A DNA stretch of 64,000 bases from Planotetraspora mira (GTDB taxonomy: Bacteria; Actinomycetota; Actinomycetes; Streptosporangiales; Streptosporangiaceae): the NCBI RefSeq assembly GCF_016863275.1, contig NZ_BOOO01000051.1:1-64000 (forward strand), given 5' to 3'. How positions within the stretch are numbered: position 1 is the stretch's first letter; each line of letters starts with the position of its first letter. Made by a program: the position numbers and the translations under genes. The notes under the pieces were generated by a model that was given only the letters and a program-made list of their open reading frames with translations, was not told the DNA's origin and made no database searches. Below, piece after piece: positions 1,287 to 23,209 of this stretch.

Positions 1287-1322
1287 GGGTCCTTAGTCTC
1301 ACTACCTGGGACCTTCAGCCCT
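1287..1322 (+). promoter_or_regulatory. Tandem DevR/DosR-like boxes upstream of truncated USP gene
   Basis: The distal element at about 1287-1300 (reverse complement GAGACTAAGGACCC) and the proximal element at 1308-1322 (GGGACCTTCAGCCCT) both resemble the DosR palindrome GGGACTWWAGTCCC. Their centres are about 22 bp apart, the same spacing as in other pairs of this window. They lie 50-85 bp before the first ATG of the damaged universal stress protein gene. Confidence 0.6.
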
Positions 1323-1371
1323 CTGTGGTGCCTGCCCTTGCTTCGTAGCGTTAATAAGAAGCGATAATGGC

Positions 1372-2109
1372 GTGATCCGGATGGATGAGATCTTTTCGGC
1401 GACGGACCTCCCGCAGGGCAGAGAAGACGAGCAGGAACCGGGGAGTTATCGGCTGACTGCACGAGATCACGTGTTCGGCCTCCACCAGGGCGAGCGGCGC
1501 CCGCCCTGCCGCTCCCGCCTGGTCCTCCTCCCCAGGAACGCCACCAGGCCCGCACGCTCCGGGCGTTTCACGGGGATGCTGCTGGGGTCGGTCAGCACGC
1601 ACGTGGCCGGCCATGTCGCCGCTGCTGTCGTAGTGGTACGGCCCGGCCCGATGGTGGTGCACGCGGAGATCGCCGTTGGCTTCGACGGCTCGGCCGAATC
1701 GGAGGCCGCTCTGACCTATGCCTTCGAAGAAGCGCGGCTACGCGGCTGCAGGATGCGCGCGGTCTACGCCTTGCAACTTCCGGTGCATGTCTACACTCCC
1801 GGAATCGTCTACGACATCGATGAGGTGCGGCGGGCCCAGCAGGATTACGCGCTCGGCAAGCTCGCGGCCTGGCAGGTGAAGTACCCCGAGGTGAAGGTGG
1901 CGGTGGACATCGTCTGCGCCCACCTGGTCACCGCCCTGGTCGAGGCCTCCCAGAAGGCGGATCTGCTGGTCGTCGGGTCCCGCGGTCACGGCGCCATCGG
2001 CGCGGTCGTGCTCGGGTCGGTGAGCCGTGCCGTACTGCAACAGGCGCATTGCGACGTCGTGGTGTGGTCACGGACCACCAGCCGGGCTGATGAAGTCGGC
2101 AAGCTGTAA
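1372..2109 (+). CDS. Universal stress protein, N-terminal domain degraded
   Basis: The last 150 residues (from about 1651) form one complete Usp domain: it opens with AEIAVGFDGS and ends with the ATP-binding signature VVGSRGHGAIGAVVLGSVS. Just before it, residues 66-92 read GMLLGSVSTHVAGH...VVVVRP, which is the C-terminal tail of a preceding Usp domain. The residues before that do not look like a Usp fold. The gene is therefore probably the remnant of a tandem-Usp protein of about 290 residues that lost most of its first domain. Translation could start at 1372, 1576 or 1651. The upstream DevR-like boxes are kept. Usp proteins of this type bind ATP and are induced in hypoxia and dormancy. Confidence 0.75.
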   Translation: MIRMDEIFSATDLPQGREDEQEPGSYRLTARDHVFGLHQGERRPPCRSRLVLLPRNATRPARSGRFTGMLLGSVSTHVAGHVAAAVVVVRPGPMVVHAEIAVGFDGSAESEAALTYAFEEARLRGCRMRAVYALQLPVHVYTPGIVYDIDEVRRAQQDYALGKLAAWQVKYPEVKVAVDIVCAHLVTALVEASQKADLLVVGSRGHGAIGAVVLGSVSRAVLQQAHCDVVVWSRTTSRADEVGKL

Positions 2110-2166
2110 GCGCCTACCGGAAGTCGGCCACGAACCGACCAGGCGAAGGATACGGAGGCGAACTCG

Positions 2167-2973
2167 ATGGTGCGGCTACCGCGCAAGCTGTACGAGAGAG
2201 AGCTTTACCGCCTTCAGACGGAGCTGGTGAAGCTTCAGGAGTGGGTACGCGGCGAAGGCGAGCGGCTCGTCGTGATCTTCGAGGGTAGGGACGCGGCCGG
2301 CAAGGGCAGCACGATCAACCGTGTCGCCGAGTACCTCAACCCGCGGGTCACCAGGATCGCCGCGCTGCCCGCGCCCGCGGAGCGGGAGCGCACCCAGTGG
2401 TACTTTCAGCGCTACGTGGAGCACCTGCCCGCCGCGGGGGAGATCGTGCTGTTCGACCGGAGCTGGTACAACCGCGCCGGGGTTGAGCGGGTGATGGGCT
2501 TTTGCACGCAGGAGGAGTACACCAGATTCCTCCACCAGTGCCCGATCTTCGAGCGGCTGCTCGTGGAAGATGGGATCCTGTTGCGCAAATACTGGTTCTC
2601 GGTGAGCGACGCCGAGCAGGAGCGGCGGTTCCGGGCCCGACTGGCCGATCCGATGCGCCGCTGGAAGCTCTCGGAGATGGACCTGGAGTCGATCACCCGG
2701 TGGGAGGATTACTCGCGGGCTAAGGATGAGATGCTGATCCACACCAACATCCCCGAGGCGCCGTGGTATGACGTGGAGAGCGAGGACAAGCGGCGGGCCA
2801 GGATCAACATGATCTCCCACCTGCTGTCGACCATCCCCTACGGGGAGGTGCAGCTCCCGTCCATGGAGATCCCCTCGCGGCCCCCGACCTCCGGCTACCG
2901 GCGGCCGACCCGCAGGCTGGAGATCCCCGTGCCGGACGTGGCGGCCACCCTGGAGGAGCATCAGGGGTCGTGA
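2167..2973 (+). CDS. ppk2: Polyphosphate kinase 2 (PPK2)
   Basis: This 268-residue protein is a class I PPK2, which transfers phosphate between polyphosphate and nucleotides, usually making GTP or ATP from the diphosphate. The Walker A loop GRDAAGKGST is at residues 40-49, the Walker B region VLFDRSWYNR at 94-103 carries the key Asp97, and the lid module contains the typical KYWFSVSDAEQ and RWKLSEMDLES stretches. Length matches the single-domain family. It follows the stress protein gene by 57 bp and could be co-transcribed with it, supplying nucleotides when respiration is limited. Residues after about 235 are a proline-rich tail. Confidence 0.93.
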   Translation: MVRLPRKLYERELYRLQTELVKLQEWVRGEGERLVVIFEGRDAAGKGSTINRVAEYLNPRVTRIAALPAPAERERTQWYFQRYVEHLPAAGEIVLFDRSWYNRAGVERVMGFCTQEEYTRFLHQCPIFERLLVEDGILLRKYWFSVSDAEQERRFRARLADPMRRWKLSEMDLESITRWEDYSRAKDEMLIHTNIPEAPWYDVESEDKRRARINMISHLLSTIPYGEVQLPSMEIPSRPPTSGYRRPTRRLEIPVPDVAATLEEHQGS

Positions 2974-3161
2974 ACGAGGGCCGGTGGATCCGCCGTGACG
3001 GGAGGTCGGATCAGCGTCGACCAGCGCCGGGTGATGGCCTACGGAAGCTCCATCGACTTCCCTACGTCGACATGCGCGAATGCCTACCGGACGGCGGCGG
3101 AAGGCGTGCACGTGCTCGCGGAACTCGTCGCACCGTGGCGCGCTAAGGGCCGCCCCAACTC

Positions 3162-3311: not shown

Positions 3312-3390
3312 CCTCCTGCTCCGCCTCCGTCGTCAAAGACCCACCCACCCACCCACGACACCGATGCCTTGATCGCGGATTCGACGGGCA

Positions 3391-3427
3391 GGGACGGAGG
3401 TCCTCGCCTCCGGGGGACTTTCGCCGC
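3391..3427 (+). promoter_or_regulatory. Tandem DevR/DosR-like boxes upstream of usp
   Basis: GGGACGGAGGTCCT (3391-3404) and GGGACTTTCGCCGC (3414-3427) both resemble the 14-bp DosR core; their centres are 23 bp apart. The proximal box ends 55 bp before the ATG at 3483. Confidence 0.6.
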
Positions 3428-3482
3428 TTCAGCCACACACGGTGGGTGGATGTCATGGAGGTGTGCGACAGAGGAGGCAGCG

Positions 3483-4346
3483 ATGATCATTGCTGGTGTC
3501 GACGGATCGGAGGCCGGCCTCGAGGCCGTGGGCTGGGCGGCCATGGAGGCGGCAGTGCGTGGGGTGCCGTTGAAAGTCGTTCACGCCCTTCCTGAGTGGA
3601 TCTTCAAAGGAGGCGCCCGCGGTGACGCCGCGCTGGTGGGCAAGTGGATGCGGGACAGCGGCACCCAGGTGGTGACGGCAGGGGTCGAGCGCGCGAACAA
3701 GGAAGCTCCCGGGGTTTCGGTGGACTGTGCGCTTCTCGCGGGGGACCCGCGCCCTGCACTGATCCAGGCGGCCGAGGACGCCGACCTTCTCGTGGTCGGG
3801 AACCACGGGATCGGCGGGTTCCGCGGGCTGTTGCTCGGATCGGTCGCCTACGGCGTGGCGGGGCACGCGCCCTGTGACGTCGTGGTCGTCCGAGAGCGCT
3901 CCTCGCCGCCGCGTGGCGAAGTGGTGGTGGGGGTCGACGGTTCACTCGAAGGCGCCAAGGTCCTGGAGTTCGCCTTCGCCGAAGCGGCACTTCACGGTGT
4001 GGGGGTTCGTGCCGTCCATGCCTGGCCGCTGCAGTTGTGGGGTGGAGGAGGTGGCTTCGTTCCTGTGCTGGACACCTCCGAGGACGAGCAGATCGAGATC
4101 CGCATGCTGGCGGAGGCCGTGGCGGGCCTGCGGGAGCGTCACCCGGAGGTCAAGGTGAGCGAAGAGGTCGTCCAGGCCCATCCGGCCGAGGCACTCAGAC
4201 GAGCCTCAGACGGTGCGGACCTGCTCGTCGTCGGATCGCGGGGAACCGGTGCGTTCAAAGGGCTGATACTCGGCTCGGTCAGCCAGGCGATGCTCCACCA
4301 CGCACGTTGCCCTCTGGCGGTCGTCCGCACGCCGAAGGCGGAGTGA
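3483..4346 (+). CDS. Tandem-domain universal stress protein
   Basis: The 287-residue product has two Usp domains, residues about 1-140 and 148-287. Each has the N-terminal VGVDGS-type strand (IIAGVDGS; VVVGVDGS) and the ATP-binding signature (VGNHGIGGFRGLLLGSVA; VGSRGTGAFKGLILGSVS). This is the architecture of mycobacterial dormancy Usps such as Rv2005c and Rv1996. The ATG at 3483 is chosen because GGAGG lies 7-8 bases upstream; an open frame continues further upstream, but that part is fossil Usp and regulatory sequence. Paired DevR-like boxes precede the gene. The P-ATPase gene follows by 67 bp, so the two may form an operon. Confidence 0.92.
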   Translation: MIIAGVDGSEAGLEAVGWAAMEAAVRGVPLKVVHALPEWIFKGGARGDAALVGKWMRDSGTQVVTAGVERANKEAPGVSVDCALLAGDPRPALIQAAEDADLLVVGNHGIGGFRGLLLGSVAYGVAGHAPCDVVVVRERSSPPRGEVVVGVDGSLEGAKVLEFAFAEAALHGVGVRAVHAWPLQLWGGGGGFVPVLDTSEDEQIEIRMLAEAVAGLRERHPEVKVSEEVVQAHPAEALRRASDGADLLVVGSRGTGAFKGLILGSVSQAMLHHARCPLAVVRTPKAE

Positions 4347-4413
4347 GCTCCGAGTCATCGCGGATCATAGGTCTTCGAACCCGAGGGTGAGTTAGCCGCA
4401 GGAGTCCGCGCAC

Positions 4414-6717
4414 GTGAAGAGATATCTGTTCTTCGCAGGCACAGCCTGCGCCCTGATCGTCGGGACGATTCTCCATCTGCTGGGAGAAGGCCGGCCGGGG
4501 GACGTCGTATGGGCGGCGGGAACTGTCATCGCATTGGTTCCCGCTGTGTGGTGGGTGGCCCGCGCGCTGCGGGCCGGTCGGATGGGCGTGGACGTGATCG
4601 CGGTGCTCGCCTTGGCCGGAGCCTTAGCCGTGCGAGAGTTCCTCGCCGGAGCGGTGATCGGGCTCATGCTGGCGAGCGGCCGGGTCCTGGAGGAGCAGGC
4701 GCTGCGCCGTGCCCGGCGGGACCTGACCGCTCTGTACGAGAGGGCTCCCCGTTTGGCACGACGTTACGAGGACGGTGCCGCCTGCCTGGTGGGAGTGGAG
4801 GAAGTGCGGCCGGGCGACCGCCTGCTGGTACCCAGTGGCGAGATGGTGCCTGTCGACGGCGTAGTGGAAAAAGGCGTCGCCCTGCTGGACGAGTCCGCGT
4901 TGACCGGCGAATCCCTGCCAGTGGAGCATCCGACGAGCGACGGCGTGCTCAGTGGCGTGGTGAACGTTGGGTCGGTGTTCGACATGCGAGCCACGTCGAC
5001 CGCCGGCACGAGCGCGTACGCGGGTGTGGTGAGGTTGGCGCGGGAGACGGAGGCGGACACCGCTCCGGTCGTCCGGCTGGCGGATCGGTTCGCGGCCTGG
5101 TTTCTGCCGCTCACGCTGCTCCTGGCCGCGTTCGCGTGGCTGATCTCCGGTGAAGCCGTGCGGGCAGTCGCCGTACTGGTCGTGGCGACCCCGTGCCCGC
5201 TTCTGCTGGCCGCGCCGGCGGCGATCGCCTCCGGCCTGTCCCGTACGGCGCGGCATGGTGTCGTCGTCAAGGGCGGAGGAGCGCTGGAGACGCTGGGCAA
5301 GGCGCGAACCCTCGTGCTGGACAAGACCGGGACCCTCACGATCGGCCGTCCGCAGGTGGTGGACATCGTGGCGGCTCCCGGCTGGGATGTGGAGAAGGTC
5401 CTGCGGCTCGCAGCGGGCGTAGATCAGATGTCGTCTCATGTGCTGGCCGCTGCGATTGTCCGCGCCGCCCGCGACCGCGAGCTGACCCTCCCCACGCCCG
5501 AAGGGCTGCGCGAGGAGCCGGGAACCGGTACGGAGGCGCTAATCGACGGCTTCCGCGTGCAGGTGGGCAAGTCACCGGGCCCACGGTCCTCCGGGTGGGA
5601 GAGGGCCCAGCGCGCCAGGGCGGGGCTCGACGGCGCCATGACCGTCTGGGTCACCGTGGACGGACAGAAGGCCGGGGTGATCCTCTTGCGGGACGCCATA
5701 CGTGCTGATGCCGCCCGAACCCTGCGGCGTCTGCGCTTGGCCGGCATAGACCGGGTGGTGATGCTCACCGGCGACCGGGCCGAGGTCGCCGAGAGCGTGG
5801 CCGCAGTGCTGGGCATCGATCGGGTCCTCGCCGAGCAGACCCCCGCGGGAAAGGTGGACGCGGTACGCGGCGAGACACGGCGCTCGACGACGATGATGGT
5901 GGGCGACGGGGTCAACGACGCACCTGCCTTGGCCGTCGCGGACGTCGGCGTGGCCTTGGGAGCTCACGGCGCGGCCGCGTCCGCCCAGGCGGCCGATGTG
6001 GTGCTCACCTCCGATCGGCTGGACCGCCTTGCCGACGCCATGGACGTCGCCAGACGGACCAGGCGTATCGCTGTGCAGAGTGCGGGCGTCGGCATCACGC
6101 TGTCTCTGCTCGCGATGGTGGTGGCGGCAGCCGGTGGTTTGCCGCCTGTGGCCGGTGCGGTGCTCCAAGAGGGCATCGACGTCGCCGTCATCCTCAATGC
6201 GCTGCGTGCGCTGCGCCCGGCCAGGGGGACCCGCCTGCCCGTGGACAGCCCTACAGAAGCACTACTGCGCCGCTTCGAGGTGGAGCACTCAGAGCTGCGG
6301 CCGCAGCTCGAACTCATCCGTGAGGTCGGCGACCGGCTGAGCCTCGAAACACCTGGGGAAGCGCGCGCCGATCTTCGGCGGGTCTACGAGTTCCTCAGCG
6401 AGGACCTGCTGCCGCATGAGCATGCGGAGGAGATCCGGCTCTATCCGGCGATGGCACGGTTGCTGGGAGACCCGGAGGCGACCGTGACCATGAGCAGGGC
6501 ACACGGTGAGATCGACCGGCTGGTGGTGCGGCTGGGCCGCCATCTGGAGCTGGCGGGCACCGCGGGACCGAGCCCGGACCAGCTCGACGACCTGCGGGCC
6601 TGCCTGTACGGCCTGCATGCCGTACTGACTTTGCACTTCGCGCAGGAGGAAGAGGCCTACTTCTCACTGGCCTCCGCTCCGGCCACGTCCGGAGAGCCGG
6701 AGCTCAGAGCGTCATGA
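4414..6717 (+). CDS. Heavy-metal P-type ATPase fused to hemerythrin domain
   Basis: The 767-residue protein is a P1B-type ATPase in residues 1-605: a transport motif ATPCPLLLAAP in a membrane helix, the phosphorylation site DKTGTLT with Asp303, the GDGVNDAPAL hinge and TGES actuator loop. It lacks an N-terminal metal-binding domain. Residues about 615-760 form a hemerythrin-like HHE domain with the expected His/Glu spacing (VEHSELR, PHEHAEE, SRAHGEI, HFAQEEEAY), which in this family binds a di-iron centre. The fusion suggests that transport is tuned by oxygen or iron state, or that the tail buffers metal. The CPL motif differs from copper (CPC) and common zinc (SPC) pumps, so the metal is uncertain. 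Start is GTG with AGGAG 9 bases upstream. Confidence 0.88.
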   Translation: MKRYLFFAGTACALIVGTILHLLGEGRPGDVVWAAGTVIALVPAVWWVARALRAGRMGVDVIAVLALAGALAVREFLAGAVIGLMLASGRVLEEQALRRARRDLTALYERAPRLARRYEDGAACLVGVEEVRPGDRLLVPSGEMVPVDGVVEKGVALLDESALTGESLPVEHPTSDGVLSGVVNVGSVFDMRATSTAGTSAYAGVVRLARETEADTAPVVRLADRFAAWFLPLTLLLAAFAWLISGEAVRAVAVLVVATPCPLLLAAPAAIASGLSRTARHGVVVKGGGALETLGKARTLVLDKTGTLTIGRPQVVDIVAAPGWDVEKVLRLAAGVDQMSSHVLAAAIVRAARDRELTLPTPEGLREEPGTGTEALIDGFRVQVGKSPGPRSSGWERAQRARAGLDGAMTVWVTVDGQKAGVILLRDAIRADAARTLRRLRLAGIDRVVMLTGDRAEVAESVAAVLGIDRVLAEQTPAGKVDAVRGETRRSTTMMVGDGVNDAPALAVADVGVALGAHGAAASAQAADVVLTSDRLDRLADAMDVARRTRRIAVQSAGVGITLSLLAMVVAAAGGLPPVAGAVLQEGIDVAVILNALRALRPARGTRLPVDSPTEALLRRFEVEHSELRPQLELIREVGDRLSLETPGEARADLRRVYEFLSEDLLPHEHAEEIRLYPAMARLLGDPEATVTMSRAHGEIDRLVVRLGRHLELAGTAGPSPDQLDDLRACLYGLHAVLTLHFAQEEEAYFSLASAPATSGEPELRAS

Positions 6718-6790: not shown

Positions 6791-6826
6791 TGGCCGAAAG
6801 TCACCAGCGGCCAGGACCTTCACCGC
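6791..6826 (+). promoter_or_regulatory. Tandem DevR/DosR-like boxes upstream of CBS-BON gene
   Basis: The distal element at 6791-6804 reads GTGACTTTCGGCCA on the minus strand and the proximal element at 6813-6826 reads AGGACCTTCACCGC. Both are close to GGGACCTTCGGCCC and their centres are 22 bp apart. The coding start is 58 bp downstream. Confidence 0.55.
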
Positions 6827-6883: not shown

Positions 6884-7546
6884 ATGGCGATCAGGGTGCG
6901 GGACGTGATGGGAAAGGTCGCGATCGCGGCCCGGATGGACGCGTCGTTCGCCGACCTCGTCGACATCATGCAGCGATTCAATGTGGGGGCCGTCACCGTG
7001 ATCGACTCCGATCGCCGCCCGGTCGGAGTGGTGTCGGAGGACGACATGCTGCTGAAGGCGACGACCGCAATCGGCAAACGGGTGATCGAGGGTCCTCGGA
7101 AGCGCGCCGAGCACCGCAAGGCGGAGGGCATGACGGCGCGCGAGATCATGACCACGCCGGCGATCACCGTGACTGGTGAGACGCCGGTGAGCGACGCGGC
7201 CAGGCTGATGCACCAGAAAAGGATCAAGCAGCTTCCCGTGATCGACGCCACGACCGGCCGTATCGCCGGGACCGTCCACCAGGGCGATCTGCTGAAGGTG
7301 TTCAACCGACCGGCGGCCGACATCACCAGTGAGATCGAGGGCATCATGGGCCGGCTCCGCATCGACCTGTCGGAGCTGCGGGTCACGGTCGAGGCGGGCG
7401 TGGTCAGCCTCAAGGGATGGATCCCCAAGCACTCGCAGTTGCGGCCCCTGCTCGACGCCGTCCGCGCCGTCGACGGTGTCGTCGAGGTCAAGGCCGACCT
7501 GGCCTTCCTGTTCGACGACCTCCTCGTGCCCCCGCCCCTCCTGTGA
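6884..7546 (+). CDS. CBS-pair and BON domain protein
   Basis: The 220-residue protein has two CBS motifs (residues about 1-60 and 80-145; the first opens VRDVMGKV and the second TAREIMTTPAITV) followed by a BON domain (about 150-215, with the DGVVEVKADL strand near the end). CBS pairs bind adenosine nucleotides and act as energy sensors; BON domains bind membranes or other hydrophobic surfaces. The combination is common in actinobacterial stress regulons, similar to mycobacterial Hrp1 with an added BON. AGGAGG lies six bases before the ATG and DevR-like boxes are upstream. It lies 47 bp before the nitroreductase gene and is probably transcribed with it. Confidence 0.9.
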   Translation: MAIRVRDVMGKVAIAARMDASFADLVDIMQRFNVGAVTVIDSDRRPVGVVSEDDMLLKATTAIGKRVIEGPRKRAEHRKAEGMTAREIMTTPAITVTGETPVSDAARLMHQKRIKQLPVIDATTGRIAGTVHQGDLLKVFNRPAADITSEIEGIMGRLRIDLSELRVTVEAGVVSLKGWIPKHSQLRPLLDAVRAVDGVVEVKADLAFLFDDLLVPPPLL

Positions 7547-7592: not shown

Positions 7593-8588
7593 ATGAACAC
7601 ACGAACATCGCAAGCCGTCGCCGGCGCGATGCGTGCGGCGATCGAGGCCGCGGTCTGGGCGCCCTCGGTGCACAACACACAGCCCTGGTCGTTCGGCGTG
7701 TCAGGGGATGAGATCTGCCTTCGTGCGGACTCTGACAGGAAGCTGCGCGTCGCCGACCCGATCGGCTGGCAGATGCTGATCAGTTGTGGCGCCGCGCTCT
7801 TCAACGTGCGGGTCACGTTGAGCGCACTCGGCTACGAGCCGGACGTGCGAGCGCTGCCCGACCCCGACCGCCCATCACTGTTGGCCACCGTCCGTCCGCG
7901 AGCGTGTGGCGAGATTCATGAGGATGCCCGCATGCTCCACGCGGAGATCCCGCGGCGCAGGACCCATCGTGCGGGATTCACCGCTCTGCCTGTCTCCGAT
8001 GCTCTGATCGAGGCGCTGGCCGCCCAGGCGGGCGAGGAGGGGGCCGCCCTCATGGTGGTGCGGTCGGAGTCGGCGATGCGCGTGCTCGCCACGCTCACGA
8101 GCGCGGCCCAGGAGGTCGAATCTCAGAACCGGGCGTTCGGCTTGGAGATGATGCGGTGGAGCAGCCCTCCGGGCAGTTCCCGGCGCGACGGTGTTCCGGC
8201 TCGCAGTTACCCCGCGGCGCCGAGGCGCACGCAACCACAGCACTTCGCACAGCGCGACTACACCCGGGGGCAGGTATGGGGGAAGGAGGACGACCTGCCG
8301 GTGTCCGTCGCCACGGGTCTCGTCGCCGTGCTCACCACGACGGGTGACTCCCGCGAGGACTGGCTGGCCGCCGGCCAGGCGTTACAGCGCACCCTGCTTC
8401 ACGCCTCCGCGTACGGGGTGAGTGCGGCCTTCCACACTCAGGCGCTGGAGATGCATGATCTGCGGGAGTTCATCCGGCGGCACATCTGCGAGGGCGCCTT
8501 CCCGCAGATGGTCATGAGATTGGGCTTCACCCTGGACGATGCCGGCAGCGTCCGTCGCCCGTCCTCGGAGGTGTTGGAAGAGCACTGA
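7593..8588 (+). CDS. Acg-like nitroreductase-family protein
   Basis: The 331-residue protein resembles the Acg group (Rv2032 of Mycobacterium tuberculosis), a divergent nitroreductase family thought to sequester FMN rather than catalyse reduction. Family marks seen are the N-terminal ASVHNTQPW-type stretch (WAPSVHNTQPW), the central RRRTHRAGF segment, and the C-terminal helix region with LREFIRR. Length fits Acg rather than the shorter classic nitroreductases. GGAGG precedes the ATG. It is downstream of the CBS-BON gene and convergent with the multicopper oxidase gene, 27 bp away. Acg genes are strict members of the DosR regulon, which supports the reading of this island. Confidence 0.87.
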   Translation: MNTRTSQAVAGAMRAAIEAAVWAPSVHNTQPWSFGVSGDEICLRADSDRKLRVADPIGWQMLISCGAALFNVRVTLSALGYEPDVRALPDPDRPSLLATVRPRACGEIHEDARMLHAEIPRRRTHRAGFTALPVSDALIEALAAQAGEEGAALMVVRSESAMRVLATLTSAAQEVESQNRAFGLEMMRWSSPPGSSRRDGVPARSYPAAPRRTQPQHFAQRDYTRGQVWGKEDDLPVSVATGLVAVLTTTGDSREDWLAAGQALQRTLLHASAYGVSAAFHTQALEMHDLREFIRRHICEGAFPQMVMRLGFTLDDAGSVRRPSSEVLEEH

Positions 8589-12150: not shown

Positions 12151-12345
12151 CTACCAGGGATGCGGCTGGTGTTCGATATGCGCGTCGGGCCCTGGAAAGA
12201 CGAGAGTCTCCCGCACCTGGTCGAGCCACCGCACGACGTAGGGCGGCGACCCGTTGGCGTGGTAAAGAGCCGTGATCAGACCAATGCGTCGCGGCCCGTC
12301 CAGACGAGGATTTTCGATGAGGCGGTCGCCGACTGCTGCCTTCAT
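12151..12345 (-). CDS. DUF1918 small protein
   Basis: This 64-residue protein matches the DUF1918 pattern: an N-terminal KAAVGDRLI strand, a central SPPYVVRW segment and the end motif FPGPDAHIEH. The fold is a small beta-barrel. Function is unknown; such genes are frequent in actinobacterial stress clusters. A DevR-like box lies 38-51 bp upstream of its ATG on the same strand. The Shine-Dalgarno sequence is weak. It probably heads the leftward unit that continues into the Rv2004c-like gene. Confidence 0.8.
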   Translation of the reverse strand: MKAAVGDRLIENPRLDGPRRIGLITALYHANGSPPYVVRWLDQVRETLVFPGPDAHIEHQPHPW

Positions 12346-12382: not shown

Positions 12383-12411
12383 GGGACCTAAGCCCTGGCC
12401 TCAGAGGTCCC
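12383..12411 (-). promoter_or_regulatory. DevR/DosR-like box upstream of DUF1918 gene
   Basis: Positions 12383-12396 read GGGACCTAAGCCCT on the plus strand (AGGGCTTAGGTCCC on the minus). A second partial site, GGGACCTCTGAGGC on the minus strand, covers 12398-12411. The first fits the 14-bp palindrome well; the second is degenerate and the spacing is shorter (15 bp between centres) than in other pairs. Confidence 0.55.
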
Positions 12412-12475
12412 AGGTCCACTTGAGCGCCTCCGCCTGGGAGGCTCTCGCTCGGGCGATCGGCGGCCCGCTTGTCGG

Positions 12476-15281: not shown

Positions 15282-15318
15282 GGGGCGAGGGTCCTTCGCT
15301 GAAGGGGACTTCGGCCCT
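15282..15318 (+). promoter_or_regulatory. Tandem DevR/DosR-like boxes upstream of GNAT/acyl-CoA synthetase gene
   Basis: The proximal site GGGACTTCGGCCCT (15305-15318) is a near match to the island's consensus. A distal site at about 15282-15295 reads GGACCCTCGCCCCT on the minus strand. The centres are about 23 bp apart. The proximal site ends 35 bp before the ATG. Confidence 0.6.
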
Positions 15319-15353: not shown

Positions 15354-18011
15354 ATGACACGATCTCTGCCCGAGGAATGCGACGTCCTGCTCCGAGACGG
15401 TGGCATCGCGCACATCCGCCCCTTGCGCACCTCTGATCGAGACGACCTTCACCGACTGGTCGACAACTCCTCCGAACGCTCCCTCTACCTACGATTCGCC
15501 ACCGGAGGCACCGCCACAGCCCACGCTTACGTGGAACGGATGACGGGACCCGCGTATCGAGGCCAGGGGCTTGTGGCGACCGTACGCGGCCGGGTGGTCG
15601 GCGTCGCGGAATGGATCGGTGACGATGCCGCTGTCCAGGCGGACCTGGGCGTCTTGCTGGACGATGCGACGCATGGGCACGGGCTGGGCACGGTCCTGCT
15701 GGAACATCTGGCGCTGAACGCGGCCGAGAACGGGATCAAGGAACTCGCGGCCGACGTCCTCGCCGAGAACAGGCAGGTCATCCAGTTGCTGGAAGACGCG
15801 GGGCTGGAGGCGCGACGCCGTTATGTGGACGGCTGGGTCGAGTTCCGGATCTCCACGGAGACGACCGCTCAGCTGTTGACGAAGATCGATGCGCGTGCGC
15901 ATGAGGCGGAGAGCAACTCTTTGGCCGGTCTGTTCGAGGCCCGCTCGGTCGCGGTGATCGGAGCGAGTCGCGATCCGGGAGGCGTCGGGCACCGCGTGCT
16001 GCGAAACCTGGTCGCCGGCGGCTTCCGTGGGCCGATTTATCCGATCAACCCCAAGGCCACCGAAGTGGAGGGCCTGGCCGCCTATCCCGAGCCGGCCGCC
16101 GCTCCCGGGCACGTAGAACTGGCCGTGGTGGCCACCCCCGCCGCCGCGGTGCTCGATGTCGCGCGTGACTGTGCGCGGCACGGTGTGCGAAGCCTGGTCG
16201 TGGTCAGCTCGGGCTTCGCCGAGGCGGGACACGGCGACCAGGAGGCCGAACTGGTGAAGATCTGCCGTGAGGCGGGGATGCGCCTGGTCGGGCCCAACTG
16301 CCTGGGCGTGGTGAACACGGCCGTGTCGCTCAACGCGAGTTTCCTTCCCCGCCAGCCGCCGGCGGGAACGGTGGCCCTGATGTCGCAGTCGGGCGCCGTG
16401 GCGGTGGGGTTGATCGACCGAGCGGCCGAGATGAGCCTCGGTATCTCCTCGTTCGCCTCCGTCGGCAACAAGGCCGACGTCAGCGGCAACGACCTGCTCG
16501 AATACTGGGAGGACGATCCGTCGACCGGCGTCATCGCCCTGTACCTGGAATCGTTCGGCAACCCACGCAGGTTCGGCCGCATCGCCCGCCGCGTCAGCAC
16601 CAAGAAACCGATCATCGTCGTCAAGAGCGGTCGGGGGACGGCCGGTGGCCGGGCCGTACGATCCCACACCGCCGCGGCGGCGACACCGGACGCGGCGGTC
16701 GACGCGTTGCTGCGAGCCTCAGGCGTGATACGTGAGGGCAGCGTCCAGGACCTGCTCGACACGGCACGGCTGCTCGCTTCGCAACCGCTCCCGCGCGGAC
16801 GACGAGTCGCGATCGTCGGCAATTCCGGTGGCCCGCAGGCGATGACGGCCGACGCGTGTGAACGACGGGGGCTCGTCGTTCCCGAGCTGTCGGAAGCCAC
16901 CAGGCAGGCGTTGCGCGCGCGGCTCCGGGCGGCCGCGGCCGTCGGCAACCCCGTTGACATCACCGCTGACGGCGAGGCCGGGGAACTCGCGGACGCCATA
17001 CGGATCGTGCTGGCCGATCCCGGCATCGACGCCGTGCTGGTGGTCTACACACCGCCGTTCGGTTCAGGGCTGGAGAGAACGCGGGACGCCGTCGCCGCCG
17101 CGTCGGAAGGCGTGGACAAGACCGTGCTCGCCTGCGTCCTCGGGCGTGATGGACTCATCGGCTCGAACGTGCCGGCCTATGCCTTTCCCGAGCAGGCCGT
17201 CCACGCACTCAGCCGTGCGGTGGACCACGCCACATGGCGCGCACGCCCGCTCGACCCTCCCGTCGAGGTCCCCCCGGTGCACGCCTCGGCCGCACGCCGG
17301 ATCGTCGAAACCGACCTCGCCGCCCACCCCGAGGGCCGCTGGCTGGACTATTCCACCGCCGCGCGTCTGCTCGACTGCTACGGCATCCGCGTGGCCGACG
17401 CCATCTCGGTGGGCGGATCCGAATCGGCCTGCGAGGCGCTCGCGTGGCTGGGGCTGCCGGTGGCGCTCAAGGCGACAGGGCCCGATCTGGTGCACAAGAG
17501 CGACGTCGGCGGCGTCCGGGTGAATCTCCGCAGTGTGGAGGAGGTACGGCAGGCCTACCGCGAGATGGCGGAACGGGTCGGACCCGCCATGACCGGCGCA
17601 CTCGTCCAGCACATGGCCGCCGAAGGCGTCGAAATGATCGTCGGCGGCGTGGCACACGAGACGTTCGGACCTCTGATCATGGTCGGCATGGGGGGAGTGG
17701 CCGCCGAGCTTCTGGTCGACCGCGCCTTCCGAGTTCCGCCCATCAGCCGCGCGGAGGCCGGGCGCATGCTCGGCGAACTGCACTGCGCACCCCTGCTCCA
17801 CGGCTACCGCGGCCGCCCAGAGGTGAAGGTGGAAGCGCTGGAAACGCACATCATCGGGATCGGCCGCCTCATGGACGAGATCCCCGAGATCGCCGAACTC
17901 GACCTCAACCCGGTGATCGTCACACCCGGCGGCGCAGTCGCCGTCGATGTCCGCCTACGGTTGGCGCCGGCACCCGCCCGTCCTTCCCCGTTCCGTCGTC
18001 GCCTCAGGTGA
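15354..18011 (+). CDS. GNAT acetyltransferase fused to ADP-forming acyl-CoA synthetase
   Basis: The 885-residue protein starts with a GNAT domain (residues about 15-165) followed by an ADP-forming acetyl/succinyl-CoA ligase unit: CoA-binding Rossmann domain from SVAVIGASRDPGGVGHRV (about 198), two flavodoxin-like ligase domains with SQSGAVAVG, and a C-terminal ATP-grasp domain with VHKSDVGGVR. This is the protein lysine acetyltransferase (Pat) type with the GNAT at the N-terminus, as in Streptomyces. The catalytic His of an active ligase was not confirmed, and Pat proteins often lack it and use the domain only to sense acetyl-CoA. Such enzymes acetylate acyl-CoA synthetases to tune carbon metabolism. 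DevR-like boxes precede it. Confidence 0.9.
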   Translation: MTRSLPEECDVLLRDGGIAHIRPLRTSDRDDLHRLVDNSSERSLYLRFATGGTATAHAYVERMTGPAYRGQGLVATVRGRVVGVAEWIGDDAAVQADLGVLLDDATHGHGLGTVLLEHLALNAAENGIKELAADVLAENRQVIQLLEDAGLEARRRYVDGWVEFRISTETTAQLLTKIDARAHEAESNSLAGLFEARSVAVIGASRDPGGVGHRVLRNLVAGGFRGPIYPINPKATEVEGLAAYPEPAAAPGHVELAVVATPAAAVLDVARDCARHGVRSLVVVSSGFAEAGHGDQEAELVKICREAGMRLVGPNCLGVVNTAVSLNASFLPRQPPAGTVALMSQSGAVAVGLIDRAAEMSLGISSFASVGNKADVSGNDLLEYWEDDPSTGVIALYLESFGNPRRFGRIARRVSTKKPIIVVKSGRGTAGGRAVRSHTAAAATPDAAVDALLRASGVIREGSVQDLLDTARLLASQPLPRGRRVAIVGNSGGPQAMTADACERRGLVVPELSEATRQALRARLRAAAAVGNPVDITADGEAGELADAIRIVLADPGIDAVLVVYTPPFGSGLERTRDAVAAASEGVDKTVLACVLGRDGLIGSNVPAYAFPEQAVHALSRAVDHATWRARPLDPPVEVPPVHASAARRIVETDLAAHPEGRWLDYSTAARLLDCYGIRVADAISVGGSESACEALAWLGLPVALKATGPDLVHKSDVGGVRVNLRSVEEVRQAYREMAERVGPAMTGALVQHMAAEGVEMIVGGVAHETFGPLIMVGMGGVAAELLVDRAFRVPPISRAEAGRMLGELHCAPLLHGYRGRPEVKVEALETHIIGIGRLMDEIPEIAELDLNPVIVTPGGAVAVDVRLRLAPAPARPSPFRRRLR

Positions 18012-18063: not shown

Positions 18064-18510
18064 ATGAACGAGCGCACCGCCCCTCCCGTCCTGGAAGAGC
18101 TCAGTGCCGAGGAGTGCTTGAAGCTCATCTCTCCCGACGGGGTCGGAAGGATCGGTTTCACCACCCCGTCCGGGCCGGTGGTGCTGCCGGTGAACTACAC
18201 CATGCACCAGGAGGCGATCCTGTTCCGCACCGCGTTCGACGGACCGATGGACGAGGATCTGAACTCGGGAATCGAAGACCTGGAATTCAAGGTCGCGTTC
18301 GAGGTGGACCATATCGACACGGCGACTCGGGAAGGCTGGAGCGTCCTCGTACGGGGACCGGCCCACCGTGTCTCAGCGGAAGACGAGCTCGCCGCCGTAC
18401 GAGACTCAGCGCCCGAGCCGTGGGCCGGCGGCGAGCGGCGACTGTACATCCGCATCGCGCCCGTGCAGCTCACCGGCCGCCGCATCCGGCATCCCCAAGC
18501 TTCCGCGTGA
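18064..18510 (+). CDS. PPOX-class flavin-binding protein
   Basis: The 148-residue protein has the split-barrel PPOX fold typical of short actinobacterial members: LSAEECLKLIS, GRIGFTTPSGPVVLPVNYTM, a DHIDTATREGWSVLVRGPAHRV strand pair and the C-terminal LTGRRIR. These proteins bind FMN, F420 or heme, and several DosR-regulon members (for example Rv3131 neighbours and Rv2074-like proteins) look alike. AGAGGA precedes the ATG by six bases. It follows the GNAT/synthetase gene by 52 bp and is probably co-transcribed. A paralogue is encoded at 22751-23158. Confidence 0.85.
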   Translation: MNERTAPPVLEELSAEECLKLISPDGVGRIGFTTPSGPVVLPVNYTMHQEAILFRTAFDGPMDEDLNSGIEDLEFKVAFEVDHIDTATREGWSVLVRGPAHRVSAEDELAAVRDSAPEPWAGGERRLYIRIAPVQLTGRRIRHPQASA

Positions 18511-18537: not shown

Positions 18538-18667
18538 CTCACACGCTCGTTGGTTGTAGGTCGTCACCGCTTTCCATCCGTCTACGCGGATGCCGGAGCG
18601 CGACGCGCCGACTGGACCTTCCACGGCACTCGGCTCCCCATATGCGGACGTAGAGCCTCCCGGCGCT

Positions 18668-18747
18668 GGGACCCTCGAGCGGGGTCACACCTGCTTCACC
18701 CCATGGGTGACCAGCACGTTGGTCTACTCACTGGGGACCTTGGTCCT
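18668..18747 (+). promoter_or_regulatory. DevR/DosR-like boxes before the response-regulator gene
   Basis: GGGACCTTGGTCCT at 18734-18747 is the most symmetrical site of the window and lies 38 bp before the regulator's ATG, which suggests autoregulation. A second partial site, GGGACCCTCGAGCG at 18668-18681, lies 66 bp upstream, three times the 22-bp unit. Confidence 0.6.
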
Positions 18748-18785
18748 CTACCGCGGGCCGCCTCGGCACGGTTAACGTCCTAGGC

Positions 18786-19460
18786 ATGATTCGGGTGTTC
18801 CTGGTAGATGATCACGAGGTGGTTCGGCGCGGCATCGCCGCGCTGCTGGAGTCCGAGGACGACATCGAGGTCGTGGGCGAGGCCGGCACCGCGGAATCCG
18901 CGATCGCGCGTATCCCGGCGCTCAAGCCCGATGTGGCGGTGCTGGACGTCCGGCTCCCCGATGGCAGTGGGGTGGACGTCTGCCGGGAGGTCCGCTCCCG
19001 TGTGCCTGAGCTGGCCTGCCTGATGCTGACCTCGTTCGCCGACGAGGAAGCCCTGTTCAACGCGGTGATGGCAGGTGCCGCCGGATACGTGCTCAAGCAG
19101 ATCCACGGTTCCGATCTGGTCGGTGCGGTCCGCACGGTCGCGCGCGGCCAGTCCCTGCTCGATCCGGCCACCACGGCCACGATGCTCCAGCGGCTGCGTG
19201 ACCAGGCCGGTCATAAGGACCCGCTGGCCGCCCTCACAGATCAGGAGAGGCACATCCTGGAGCTGATCGGTGAGGGAATGACCAACCGGCAGATCGGCGA
19301 GCGGCTCTTCCTGGCTGAGAAGACCGTGAAGAACTACGTCTCGAACGTGCTGAGCAAGCTCAACATGCAGCGCCGTACTCAGGTCGCCGCGCTCGCGGCA
19401 CGGCTCAAGGCCGACCGGCCTTCCGGCAAGGGCCACTCGGACGGCGGAAAGGGCAAATGA
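18786..19460 (+). CDS. devR: DevR/DosR (OsdR)-like response regulator
   Basis: The 224-residue NarL/FixJ-family regulator is strikingly close to mycobacterial DosR: it begins MIRVFLVDDHEVVRRG, has the phospho-acceptor Asp54 in VLDVRLPDG, and its LuxR-type HTH reads LTDQERHILELIGEGMTN then FLAEKTVKNYVSNVLSKL. In DosR the same HTH reads the GGGACTNNNGTCCC palindrome, which agrees with the boxes in this window. The linked kinase is DevS-like, encoded 1.6 kb downstream. A box at 18734-18747 suggests it activates itself. The symbol is by similarity; in Streptomyces the homologue is called OsdR. Confidence 0.92.
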   Translation: MIRVFLVDDHEVVRRGIAALLESEDDIEVVGEAGTAESAIARIPALKPDVAVLDVRLPDGSGVDVCREVRSRVPELACLMLTSFADEEALFNAVMAGAAGYVLKQIHGSDLVGAVRTVARGQSLLDPATTATMLQRLRDQAGHKDPLAALTDQERHILELIGEGMTNRQIGERLFLAEKTVKNYVSNVLSKLNMQRRTQVAALAARLKADRPSGKGHSDGGKGK

Positions 19461-19551: not shown

Positions 19552-20118
19552 CTACTTGAGGATGGGGAAGCGCCGGACCACCCGAGTGTTCCGCCACCAT
19601 CCGCCGATGCCGAGCGTGTCGCCGGCGTCCGCCAGGGCCAGGGCGACCAGCACGATGGCGTACACGATGTGCTCGTCGACGAACGGGTTCGTCTCCAGCG
19701 GCAGCGACGCCGCCCACATGAGCACGAGGAGCAGGCCACCCGTGGCGGCGGTGATGCGCATGCCGGCGCCCAAGACGAGGGCCGTGCCGATGCCCAACAG
19801 GCCGATCATGAACAGCCAGTCCACCCACGTCTGCCCGGCCAGATCGGCGAAGAAGCCTCCGAACGCGTGCTCACTGGTTCCCTTGAGGAACCCGGTGGTC
19901 GGGCTGCCCCCGTTGATCCAGGCGCGGTCGGACGGTGTGGCGAAGCCCCAGCCGAAGACCTTGTCGAGGAATGCCCAGAGGAAGACCCATCCGACAGTGA
20001 TGCGCGCGACCGCCCAGGCGTAGTCAGCGGGACGTGTCGTCTGCTGTCCCCGGTCGTGCTTCACCACGGGGGTGTGGGGAGCGGCGTCATGCTGGTGGCG
20101 TCCTTCGGTGAGTGCCAT
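19552..20118 (-). CDS. DoxX-family membrane protein
   Basis: The 188-residue protein has four hydrophobic segments after a polar 35-residue N-terminus and begins its DoxX domain at WAVARITVGWVFLWAFLDKVFG. DoxX proteins are small membrane proteins linked to redox homeostasis and thiosulfate or quinone chemistry; the exact role is unknown. AAAGGG lies six bases before the ATG. It is divergent from the Hsp20 gene, and the two share a region with paired DevR-like boxes, so both probably respond to the local regulator. Confidence 0.85.
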   Translation of the reverse strand: MALTEGRHQHDAAPHTPVVKHDRGQQTTRPADYAWAVARITVGWVFLWAFLDKVFGWGFATPSDRAWINGGSPTTGFLKGTSEHAFGGFFADLAGQTWVDWLFMIGLLGIGTALVLGAGMRITAATGGLLLVLMWAASLPLETNPFVDEHIVYAIVLVALALADAGDTLGIGGWWRNTRVVRRFPILK

Positions 20119-20214: not shown

Positions 20215-20251
20215 CCGCCGGATGTCCCGGGCCGCCTGGGACCTTCGGCAC
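20215..20251. promoter_or_regulatory. Tandem DevR/DosR-like boxes between doxX and hsp20
   Basis: GGGACCTTCGGCAC (20238-20251, plus) and GGGACATCCGGCGG (20228-20215, minus) lie with centres 23 bp apart in the divergent region, which is 327 bp long and holds no gene. A further degenerate site AGGACCTCCGCCCA lies at 20369-20382, closer to hsp20. Confidence 0.55.
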
Positions 20252-20445
20252 TGCCGCGGTGCCCGGCACTCGCGAAGACCCGTCGAGCACACAGCACAGC
20301 TCCCACACGGCTGAACGGCGCTCGGATGCCGAGCCGCGGGCAGATTGTGCCGAAGGACCCTGCGCCTGAGGACCTCCGCCCACACCACAGGCGGTGTGAC
20401 GGCAGTGGGATGGAAGGGCAAGCCGGCAAGGTGGAGGTGGGACAG

Positions 20446-20895
20446 ATGGGCACACCAGTGCGCAGAGAGCCAAGGGGATTCCTCCCCGACCTCATGGAAT
20501 TGCTGGAGGCTCCGTTGGCCGGGTTGCGACCGGCGGTGGGGCAGGCGATCCGCTTCGAGGACTACATCGCGGTCGGACGATATGTGTTGCGTGCCGAGCT
20601 GCCCGGAGTCGATCCCGAGAGGGACGTCGAGATCACTCTGGCTGATGGGATTCTCACCATCCGCGCCGAGCGTCACCACGAAGAGAAGGACAGGCACCGC
20701 ACCGAGTTCAGGTACGGCTTCTTCACCCGCTCCGTCGTGCTGCCGCCCGGGGCAGACGAGAAGGACGTCGAAGCTGTCTACGACCAGGGAATCCTCGAGG
20801 TCAGCGTCAAGCTCAACGAAAAGAAGCAGGAAGGCAGGCGCATCCTCGTCGGCAGGACGGCTGAGGACAAGGGCGGAATGGCAGGCAAGGGCTGA
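20446..20895 (+). CDS. Hsp20/alpha-crystallin small heat shock protein
   Basis: The 149-residue protein has a central alpha-crystallin domain (about 45-135: AELPGVDPERDVEITLADGI, then SVVLPPGADEKDVEAVYDQG) and a short tail with the RRILV anchor motif. It is an ATP-independent chaperone holding unfolded proteins, the counterpart of Acr/HspX in the DosR regulon. The ATG at 20446 is chosen because GGAGG lies eight bases upstream; an in-frame ATG at 20410 has no such site. The DevS-like kinase gene follows by 164 bp. Confidence 0.9.
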   Translation: MGTPVRREPRGFLPDLMELLEAPLAGLRPAVGQAIRFEDYIAVGRYVLRAELPGVDPERDVEITLADGILTIRAERHHEEKDRHRTEFRYGFFTRSVVLPPGADEKDVEAVYDQGILEVSVKLNEKKQEGRRILVGRTAEDKGGMAGKG

Positions 20896-20940
20896 ACCGT
20901 TCCGCTCGAGTCCGCGTAGAGCCATAGGGCCCCGGGCCGG

Positions 20941-20954
20941 CGTCGCAAGGTCCC
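20941..20954 (-). promoter_or_regulatory. Possible DevR-like box before the devS-like gene
   Basis: The minus strand reads GGGACCTTGCGACG. The left half fits the consensus well, the right half poorly. It lies 106 bp before the kinase ATG at 21060. Confidence 0.4.
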
Positions 20955-21059: not shown

Positions 21060-22754
21060 ATGACGGAGAACGAGCCACGCTCGCTGATCCCGCACATGCG
21101 GCTCGACGACCTGTTGGCCGAGTTGCAGGCGCGACTGAACGCGGTACTGGCGTCTCGAGACCGCGTTCATGGGCTGCTGGACGCCGTCGTGTCGGTGGGT
21201 AGTGACCTTGATCTGGAGACGGTTCTGCACCGGATCGTCGAGACCGCCATCACCCTCGTCGATGCCAGCTACGGGGCGATGGGGGTGATCGGCGAGGAGA
21301 ACACGCTCGTTCAGTTCATCCCCGTGGGCTTGACCGAACAGGAGATAGCGAGAATCGCCCACTGGCCGCACGGCCTGGGCCTGCTCGGACTGTTGATCAA
21401 GCAACCGCAGACGCTGCGGCTGGCCGACATCTCCCAGCATCCCGAGTCCTACGGGTTTCCGCCGGGCCATCCCCCGATGGGGAGTTTCCTCGGCGTGCCC
21501 GTCAGGGTCCGGGACGAGATCTTCGGAAACCTCTACCTCACCGAGAAACGCGGGGGAGGGGAGTTCGACGAAGAGGATGAGGCGATCGTCGTCGCGCTCG
21601 CCACCGCGGCCGGCGTCGCCATCGAGAATGCCCGGTTGTATGAGGAGACCCGCCGCCGAGAGAGCTGGCTGAAGGCCTCCTCGGAGATCACCACCGCACT
21701 TCTGTCGGGAGCCGAACCGCAGGAGGTGCTCACCTTGGTCGCACGGCGGGCCCGGGAAATGGCCGACGCCGACGCCGTCACGATCCTGCTGCCAGGCGCC
21801 GACCGGGAATCCGTCCGTACGGTCAACGAGGACGGCCAGATGGACCGGCAGTACACGGCAGGTGAGATCGCAGGCACGCTGGCCGGCCGGGCCTGTGTCA
21901 CCGGGGAACCTCTCATGGTCGACGATCCGGCCGAAGGCGACCTCCTGGAGGCCGCGCCTGACCGTTTTCCGGCAGGTCCCCTGGCGGCCGTTCCGCTCGG
22001 CGCGGCGGGAGCCGTACGAGGTGTGCTGTCACTGGGCAAACGCTCAGGGCGCATCCCGTTCAGCATGTCTGAGGTGCGAACGCTGCACGCCTTCGCCGGG
22101 CAGGCGGCCGTCGCGCTGGAGCTCGCAGACACCCGCAAGGACGCGGAGCGGCTGGGACTGCTGGAGGACCGCGACCGCATCGCCAAGGACCTGCACGATG
22201 TCGTCATCCAGCGGCTCTTCGCCGTCGCCATGACGCTCATGAGCACGGTTCGGCTGGTAGAGCGGCCGGAGGCGTCATCGAGGTTGCAGAGCGCGATCGA
22301 CGAGCTGGACGGGACCATCCGGCAGATCCGCTCGACCATCTTCGCCCTCCAGGCGCCGCGCGATGCGGGTGCTCCGAGTCTGCGGGCACAGATCGTGGAG
22401 GTGGTCGAGGGCGCTCGCGGGCATCTGGGCTTCATGCCGGGGCTGAGTATGGAGGGCCAGCTCGACAACGAGGTGTCTCCAGAGCTCGCCGAGCAGGTGC
22501 TGGCGGTGCTCCGTGAGGCGCTGTCCAATGTGGTCCGGCATGCCATCGCCCACCGGTCGGACGTGACGGTTCGGGCGGAGGAAGGGTGGCTCACCCTGAT
22601 CGTGCAGGACGACGGGGTGGGGATCCCGTCCGGAGGGCGGCGCAGCGGCCTGCGCAACCTCGAAGAACGAGCGCACGCGCTGGGCGGCTCATTCGAGGTG
22701 GCGCCATTGGCGGCCGGAGGAACCCGGGTCCTGTGGCGGGTGCCGCTGTCCTAG
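21060..22754 (+). CDS. devS: DevS/DosT-like GAF sensor histidine kinase
   Basis: The 564-residue soluble kinase has two GAF domains (about 45-195 and 215-360), a HisKA_3 dimer domain with DRIAKDLHDVVIQRLF (phospho-acceptor His379) and a C-terminal HATPase (EALSNVVRHA, DDGVGIPSG). In mycobacterial DosS and DosT the first GAF binds heme through a His (149 or 147), giving oxygen, NO and CO sensing. Here GAF1 keeps the PESYGFPPGHPPMGSFLGVP segment with His137 at the matching place, so heme binding is likely but not shown. The start at 21060 drops a poorly conserved extension. Its stop overlaps the convergent PPOX gene by four bases. The partner is the regulator at 18786. Confidence 0.9.
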   Translation: MTENEPRSLIPHMRLDDLLAELQARLNAVLASRDRVHGLLDAVVSVGSDLDLETVLHRIVETAITLVDASYGAMGVIGEENTLVQFIPVGLTEQEIARIAHWPHGLGLLGLLIKQPQTLRLADISQHPESYGFPPGHPPMGSFLGVPVRVRDEIFGNLYLTEKRGGGEFDEEDEAIVVALATAAGVAIENARLYEETRRRESWLKASSEITTALLSGAEPQEVLTLVARRAREMADADAVTILLPGADRESVRTVNEDGQMDRQYTAGEIAGTLAGRACVTGEPLMVDDPAEGDLLEAAPDRFPAGPLAAVPLGAAGAVRGVLSLGKRSGRIPFSMSEVRTLHAFAGQAAVALELADTRKDAERLGLLEDRDRIAKDLHDVVIQRLFAVAMTLMSTVRLVERPEASSRLQSAIDELDGTIRQIRSTIFALQAPRDAGAPSLRAQIVEVVEGARGHLGFMPGLSMEGQLDNEVSPELAEQVLAVLREALSNVVRHAIAHRSDVTVRAEEGWLTLIVQDDGVGIPSGGRRSGLRNLEERAHALGGSFEVAPLAAGGTRVLWRVPLS

Positions 22755-23158
22755 CGCCGGATACGGCGTCCGGAAAGCTGCTTGAGATCCACCACGATGT
22801 AGTGGTCCCGGCGGCCTTGAGCCCATGGCGTCAGTGGCAGGCGCGCCAGGGCGGCGGTCTCCGCGGGATCGTCCACCGTCCGCGCGCGTCCCACCGCCGT
22901 CACCGACCATCCCGTGCCTGCCCGGGCGTCGTACTCATCGGTCTCGAAGGCGACCACCGCGTTCGCGGCGGCCACCGCGAGTTTCGAATCCCGCGATGTA
23001 CGGATGACGACCCGTTCGCCGTCGAGATGGAAGTTGACGGGCTGAACTGCGGGGAGGGCGCGGTCGGTGAAGACGATGCGTCCGATGGGCACCGAAGCGA
23101 GCAACGCGATGCACTCCTCCGGGGAAAGGATCTGAAGCCCGGCCGAATCTGTTCTCAC
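22751..23158 (-). CDS. PPOX-class flavin-binding protein (second copy)
   Basis: The 135-residue protein is a paralogue of the one at 18064-18510: ILSPEECIALLASVPIGRI, LPAVQPVNFHL, then GTGWSVTAVGRARTV and the C-terminal LKQLSGRRIRR. It belongs to the split-barrel flavin or F420-binding group; the reaction is unknown. The minus strand upstream carries the DevR-like site GGGACCTTCGCCCC 38-51 bp from the ATG. Its 3' end overlaps the end of the devS-like gene by four bases, tail to tail. Confidence 0.85.
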   Translation of the reverse strand: MRTDSAGLQILSPEECIALLASVPIGRIVFTDRALPAVQPVNFHLDGERVVIRTSRDSKLAVAAANAVVAFETDEYDARAGTGWSVTAVGRARTVDDPAETAALARLPLTPWAQGRRDHYIVVDLKQLSGRRIRR

Positions 23159-23195
23159 GCCACCCAGCCTGCCTGAGCGCGCGCGGCGTCGGTAA

Positions 23196-23209
23196 GGGGC
23201 GAAGGTCCC
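23196..23209 (-). promoter_or_regulatory. DevR/DosR-like box upstream of second PPOX gene
   Basis: The minus strand reads GGGACCTTCGCCCC, one of the best matches in the window. I see no second site 22 bp away. It lies between the PPOX start (23158) and the stop of the FMN-binding gene (23269). Confidence 0.6.

Follow-up and report, generated by a model that had tools for sequence, protein, structure and literature searches.

Inverted operator pairs about 22 bp apart in a probable DevR/OsdR low-oxygen regulon of Planotetraspora mira

The first 64,000 nucleotides of contig C51 of Planotetraspora mira (NZ_BOOO01000051.1; genome 9.03 Mb), called the window here, begin with an island of dormancy-type genes. 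Around a gene for a DevR-like response regulator, near-matches to the palindrome GGGACCTTCGGCCC are found 5' of two universal stress protein (USP) genes and of the CBS-BON, DUF1918, GNAT-synthetase, devR, doxX/hsp20, and second PPOX genes. Are these sites the operators of a dormancy regulon, how are they arranged, and does the island hold the whole regulon? GGGACCTTCGGCCC is the core of the published OsdR sites at SCO0167, SCO0216, and SCO5979 (PMC5069765), so the consensus is not fitted to the window. With a probability of about 0.9, the island is the DevR/OsdR low-oxygen regulon of an actinomycete of the Streptosporangiaceae type, with activation by paired dimers. Binding by DevR and induction under hypoxia are predicted here from the DNA sequence.

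The evidence lies mainly in the pairing of the sites. Pairs were counted where each site had at most four mismatches, the two together had at most seven, and the centres were 21-23 bp apart. Six such places are found in the first 25 kb of the window, none in the other 39 kb, and two in 380 kb of control segments from the same genome (expected 0.13, Poisson P about 6e-9). When the sum is raised to eight, the counts become seven, none, and eight (expected 0.53, P about 1.4e-6). At the sum of seven, 14 other 3-bp spacing classes yield no more than one pair each in the first 25 kb. A permissive inverted-pair pattern has 42 distinct places in the whole genome, and six of them are in these 25 kb, which make up 0.28% of it. 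The initial annotation had listed near-matches at eight places, and all eight bear them (Table 1). It had also given five pairs at 22-23 bp; four are spaced as described, and the centres of the fifth (1287/1308) are 21 bp apart.

The dimer sites are asymmetric, and the two sites of a pair usually have their better halves (GGGACCT) turned towards each other; such a pair is called inverted. The proximal site has its GGCCC end on the side of the gene. The same arrangement is found in other genera. From one scan of named bacterial genomes, 80 of 568 relatives were kept, each with flanks of up to 10 kb. These loci contain 33 inverted pairs at 21-23 bp, of which 26 are at exactly 22 bp, while elsewhere (spacings of 14 to 60) there are 0.61 per spacing. 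Pairs in the other orientations number 2, 10, and 12 at 21-23 bp. At these spacings, control segments have no inverted pairs and order-2 Markov versions of the 80 loci have one. In several other genera, pairs lie directly 5' of devR. A homologue of an island protein starts within 320 bp to one side in 40 of 57 pair rows (a few rows are one pair in two registers), which is not the fairest test because the loci surround devR by construction.

A strict 22-bp pattern was also searched in 61 genomes of the family. It matches at 17 places in 12 genomes, and a reversed control pattern matches once. Homologues of island proteins are found within 1.5 kb of 16 of the 17 places; the families are CBS-BON, USP, DevR, DevS, nitroreductase, PPOX, DoxX, Hsp20, GNAT-synthetase, and P-type ATPase. 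In the control, 8 of 114 3-kb segments of the window's genome have island homologues, and two of those eight have the most island-typical families. At two of the 16 places the alignments are short (48 and 53 residues) and therefore weak; Pfam confirms the P-type ATPase beside one of them. The remaining place, in genome G058, is taken as chance. It lies inside a reading frame with an F420H2-dependent quinone reductase domain, and G058 is one of the seven family genomes without a DevR match at E 1e-80. Across 296 genomes of the phylum the strict pattern has matches in five, including the window's genome.

The regulator (18786) and kinase (21060) had been likened to DosR/DevR and DevS, and the host had been judged a probable non-mycobacterial actinomycete; all three identifications are borne out. 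By sequence the regulator is a DevR/OsdR orthologue, with a NarL-type receiver and a LuxR/GerE helix-turn-helix (PF00072, PF00196). Among solved structures it matches M. tuberculosis DevR best (3c3w, E 2e-79); Asp54 is aligned between the two, and the recognition helix FLAEKTVKNYVS is identical. The closest DevR is that of Sphaerisporangium melleum (94%), followed by those of other Streptosporangiaceae. A tree of 25 DevR rows is mostly unresolved and has two well-supported groups, the window DevR with S. melleum and a second copy on contig C23 with that of a same-genus genome. The first GAF domain of the kinase matches DevS and DosT chains. The column of His149, which we take to be the proximal haem ligand of DevS/DosT, is conserved: each of the five printed alignments places the His of the HPPM motif there (the numbering is derived from the position of Glu87). 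The Glu87 column of DevS is Gly in the window kinase as in 2vzw, which we take to be DosT. The kinase may be expected, by family likeness, to bind haem and to respond to O2, NO, or CO.

Another regularity is found 3' of the proximal site. In 45 hand-picked pair promoters, [AC]TG[GA]A begins 28-30 nt past the proximal site in 18, where about 0.4 would be expected; 37 of these promoters were also examined on the other side, which has three matches at 26-30. The element was first noticed by eye in promoter sequences. It was retested on all sites with at most two mismatches in the 80 loci, unselected for pairs or genes; among these 195 strong sites it begins at 28-30 nt 3' of 24 and 5' of two. Note that the retest is largely on the same loci and is a broader test, not a replication. 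The element may be a -10/discriminator. If its T is base -7, the centre of the proximal operator is at -42.5 to -44.5, which would agree with M. tuberculosis DevR, whose proximal site is described as overlapping -35 (PMC3029386). In the window's genome, an operator-plus-element pattern has seven matches and its control six. Two of the seven are island promoters, one is at a two-CBS-domain gene on contig C36, and four have no partner site. At devR, TAACGT (18773-18778) is a candidate -10 at a matching distance from the operator. It ends 7 nt before the start codon, and the devR mRNA would be nearly leaderless if transcription starts there.

The following mechanism is proposed. Loss of oxygen from its haem would cause the DevS/DosT-like kinase to phosphorylate DevR at Asp54, as family members suggest. 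Two DevR dimers would then occupy neighbouring sites on one face of the DNA, at a distance of 22 bp, or about two turns. Because [AC]TG[GA]A often starts 28-30 nt past the proximal site, the proximal dimer would replace the -35 element at about -42.5 to -44.5, that is, by class II activation. The distal dimer, near -65, would add cooperativity. This switch would activate the USP, CBS-BON, Hsp20, DoxX, PPOX, and acyl-CoA synthetase genes and devR itself. The nitroreductase gene, directly 3' of the CBS-BON gene, and the first PPOX gene (PPOX1) have no listed operator of their own, and both are probably activated as downstream genes of the same operons.

Several observations weigh against this reading, and some of them would be expected if the sites had no regulatory role and were random near-matches to a palindrome that, like the genome, is rich in G and C. 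Single sites are close to the chance level: with at most three mismatches there are 29 in the window and 21.4 +/- 4.9 in shuffled sequence, and 5 of 100 shuffles reach 29. Many single matches are expected because of genome composition. A weight matrix built from 25 distinct published OsdR sites (PMC5069765, Table 1) gives eight matches with a score of at least 8 in the first 25 kb, where control segments predict 5.9; it was dropped as a test of single sites because GGCC palindromes swamp it. For 7 of the 12 best single sites of the genome, all outside the window, C13, and C23, every partner has at least five mismatches. The window pairs have 5 to 7 mismatches in 28 bases and are weaker than the strict pattern, which misses them all and matches in this genome only at a pair on contig C13. 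The permissive 22-bp pattern shows no excess over its reversed control in genome totals (23/17 vs 19/25), although the 23-bp version does (9/12 vs 4/3). A degenerate pair pattern fared no better in the 61 family genomes, since its reversed control matched at least as often in most of them, and it was replaced by the strict pattern. Nor are the 16 strict places all independent: the C13 pair and its same-genus copy are orthologues, one pair seen in two species, and some places belong to a common locus. By genome, strict pairs are found in 11 of 54 genomes with a DevR match and in one of seven without, and the difference is not significant because the strict pattern yields few pairs per genome. 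Within the island, devR and the second PPOX gene (PPOX2) have single strong operators instead of pairs, and the promoter element is found in just two of the eight window pairs examined. Yet chance is a very improbable explanation for the whole. It does not account for a pair spacing sharply fixed both in the window and in 80 loci of other genera, for strict pairs beside the same gene families at 16 of 17 places, or for a promoter-like element at a fixed distance on one side only. Of the 12 one-mismatch sites in the genome, three are in the window, which makes up 0.7% of it. The initial annotation had named, as an outcome that would speak against it, sites no commoner here than in random segments. 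Single sites come near to this outcome, but pairs are clearly enriched.

If the pairs are real operators, they could belong to another regulator with the same targets, for example a different LuxR-family response regulator. The genome offers candidates, with 135 matches to DevR at E <=0.001, many of them of the NarL family. We consider this unlikely in the extreme, though less so than chance, since the site is identical to published OsdR sites, the regulator has the recognition helix of DevR, and pairs stand just 5' of devR in several other genera. A less easily dismissed alternative, still improbable, is that the two sites together form a single extended operator bound by one higher-order DevR complex, or that the distal site serves repression. 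The spacing hardly departs from 22 bp and the orientation is mostly inverted, and for this reason the pair behaves as one unit. Nevertheless, for M. tuberculosis DevR, cooperative binding to a primary and a secondary site is reported in activation (PMC3029386), and OsdR is reported to be required for the activity of three target promoters (PMC5069765).

Table 1. Operators, promoter elements, and genes of the island, with related features elsewhere in the genome
Feature	Position	Strand	Remarks
Operator pair, sites 1287-1300 and 1308-1321, 5' of USP 1372	1287..1321	+	centres 21 bp apart
Inverted operator pair, 3391-3404 (minus) and 3414-3427 (plus), 5' of USP 3483	3391..3427	+	23 bp
Inverted operator pair 6791/6813, 5' of CBS-BON	6791..6826	+	22 bp
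Operator 12383 with weak partner 12405, 5' of DUF1918	12383..12418	-	weak; 22 bp, 4+5 mismatches
Inverted operator pair 15282/15304, 5' of GNAT/acyl-CoA synthetase	15282..15317	+	22 bp
Single strong operator 5' of devR	18734..18747	+	
Inverted operator pair 20215/20238, doxX/hsp20 divergent region	20215..20251		23 bp
Inverted operator pair 20347/20369, 5' of hsp20	20347..20382	+	22 bp; absent from the initial annotation
Direct-orientation pair 20919/20941, 5' of devS	20919..20954	+	weak; 22 bp, 4+4 mismatches
Single operator 5' of PPOX gene 2	23196..23209	-	same arrangement on contig C23 beside second devR
Putative -10/discriminator ATGGA, 28 nt past proximal operator 3414	3455..3459	+	
Putative -10/discriminator ATGGA, 28 nt past proximal operator of hsp20 pair	20410..20414	+	
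USP gene, Usp domain in C-terminal part	1372..2109	+	Pfam PF00582
Polyphosphate kinase 2 (PPK2) gene	2167..2973	+	Pfam PF03976
USP gene, two Usp domains	3483..4346	+	domain scan
Heavy-metal P-type ATPase with C-terminal hemerythrin domain	4414..6717	+	above NCBIfam cut-off
CBS-BON protein gene	6884..7546	+	Pfam PF00571, PF04972
Acg-family FMN-binding nitroreductase gene (Rv3131 type)	7593..8588	+	NCBIfam NF047509
DUF1918 gene	12151..12345	-	Pfam PF08940
GNAT domain (N-terminal) fused to ADP-forming acyl-CoA synthetase	15354..18011	+	paired operator upstream; Pfam/NCBIfam scans
PPOX-type flavoprotein gene 1, 3' of synthetase	18064..18510	+	Pfam PF12900
DevR/OsdR-type response regulator gene	18786..19460	+	domains and homology
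DoxX-like gene	19552..20118	-	name from the initial annotation
Hsp20/alpha-crystallin gene	20446..20895	+	Pfam PF00011; start 20446 probable from sequence, HMM search took 20425
DevS/DosT-like sensor kinase gene (two GAF, HisKA_3, HATPase)	21060..22754	+	domain scan
PPOX-type flavoprotein gene 2	22751..23158	-	Pfam PF12900
Strict pair and second CBS-BON gene	L162:2372-3126 = C13:16871-17625		
Second devR (88% identical), PPOX gene, two single operators	L009:276-1435 = C23:276-1435		near contig edge
Two-CBS-domain protein gene, one unpaired DevR-type site, promoter element	L264:1049-1498, contig C36	-	best partner 8 mismatches

As shown in Table 1, genes in the window were assigned by Pfam and NCBIfam scans. 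The DoxX-like protein has no match in Pfam or NCBIfam, and its homologues adjoin pairs at other loci. The gene order synthetase, PPOX, DevR, USP, kinase, PPOX is conserved in Sphaerisporangium melleum. The P-type ATPase gene (4414) probably shares a transcript with the USP gene at 3483. Its product joins a metal pump to hemerythrin, a possible O2/NO-sensing domain. Farther upstream of devR there is a weak 23-bp pair at 18649-18677. Operators of the class GGGNC-N4-GNCCC are present in the window, and the regulator is predicted to bind them. The canonical mycobacterial box is TTSGGGACTWWAGTCCCSAA; its best match in the window (15/20) is at the devR operator, and the rest is background.

The regulon appears to reach beyond the island. 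The initial annotation had seen an almost complete dormancy regulon in one place. That claim is not upheld: candidate targets lie on C13, C23, and C36, and just 3 of 13 USP-domain matches of the genome are within the island, so the island is the core and not the whole. The C13 pair (16871/16893) has three mismatches in 28 bases, stands about 54 bp 5' of the second CBS-BON gene, and is conserved identically in the same-genus genome (G022). This genome has the second-devR arrangement of C23, also near a contig edge, and the C23-type copy is the only DevR found in it at E 1e-80. At that threshold more than one DevR is found in 16 of the 61 family genomes. The regulon probably includes the second DevR and targets on two or more further contigs. 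The two-CBS-domain gene on C36 is proposed as a target more weakly, from its site and element; its product resembles what we take to be the hypoxic response protein type of M. tuberculosis. A 23-bp pair at C4:282850 (L160:1197-1233 = C4:282846-282882) is close to, though not upstream of, a double-USP gene (283662-284495). Three frames next to the pair were scanned with Pfam and have no match.

We lean towards a more general view, in which a single fixed grammar governs the DevR promoters of actinomycetes: two polar sites in inverted orientation with a spacing of 22 bp, a -10/discriminator [AC]TG[GA]A at 28-30 nt, and no -35. With so specific a grammar, a large part of the dormancy regulon could be read directly from a genome, targets beyond the island included. 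In the present genome, two DevR paralogues would share one operator set. What this adds to the known system is a cis rule for genes under DevR outside mycobacteria. Because strict inverted 22-bp pairs in the 61 genomes are almost only near dormancy-type genes, some hypoxia targets would be predictable from sequence. The spacing, which is near-invariant, the polarity, and the distance to the promoter open both DevR cooperativity and contact with RNA polymerase to simple spacing mutants in a harmless soil actinomycete.

This kind of system is already known from OsdR/OsdK (2016) and from DevR/DosR. As in Streptomyces coelicolor (SCO0204/SCO0203), a DevR-type regulator and a DevS-type kinase stand beside USP, nitroreductase, and PPOX genes, and the operator is the same, with the exact core GGGACCTTCGGCCC and an island around the regulator. 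The published OsdR sites are AGGGACCTTCGGCCCC 5' of SCO0167 and SCO0216 and CGGGACCTTCGGCCCT 5' of SCO5979, described as 16-bp palindromes to which phosphorylation improves binding (PMC5069765). Table 1 of that paper lists two site positions for some genes (e.g., SCO0517, -248 and -268), and the words 'spacing', 'tandem', 'inverted', and 'two binding sites' are absent from its main text. Unlike that account, the present one has inverted 22-bp pairs, a promoter-like element 3' of them, and a second copy of DevR.

Another comparison is with PolS-PolR of Microlunatus phosphovorus, also a DevS/DevR-like two-component system, whose PolR is 76% identical to DevR (PMC6754071). Unlike the operators here, the reported PolR site is a direct repeat, GTTCACnnnnnGTTCaC, and the PolR targets are phosphate and polyphosphate genes. 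Pairing of inverted sites at 22 bp outside mycobacteria is not described in the literature searched, which did not extend to subscription papers and the main M. tuberculosis promoter studies.

The dormancy targets of M. tuberculosis include USP, Hsp20, nitroreductase, and CBS genes, as here, and the bases flanking its box differ from those of the present operators. Like the window, M. tuberculosis DevR/DosR combines a response regulator, a haem-GAF kinase, and paired primary and secondary sites; its proximal site overlaps -35, as may be the case for the present pairs. The passages available on it (PMC3029386) state neither a centre spacing nor inverted polarity, both of which are described here. 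In two class-mate genera (f4, g63 and g64), taken for mycobacterial, 12 loci of 3.6 kb around devR homologues have no pairs at the thresholds used. For 26 mycobacterial-type boxes in the genomes of these genera, an offset of exactly 22 is among the three best partner offsets in six, where about 1.7 would be expected by our own estimate. Many of these boxes may be chance, because in two of the six genomes they are no commoner than a control pattern. The 22-bp spacing in these two genera is thus suggestive only. Since pairing is established in M. tuberculosis and this weak test suggests the same spacing, the 22-bp spacing is probably ancestral rather than special to Planotetraspora mira.

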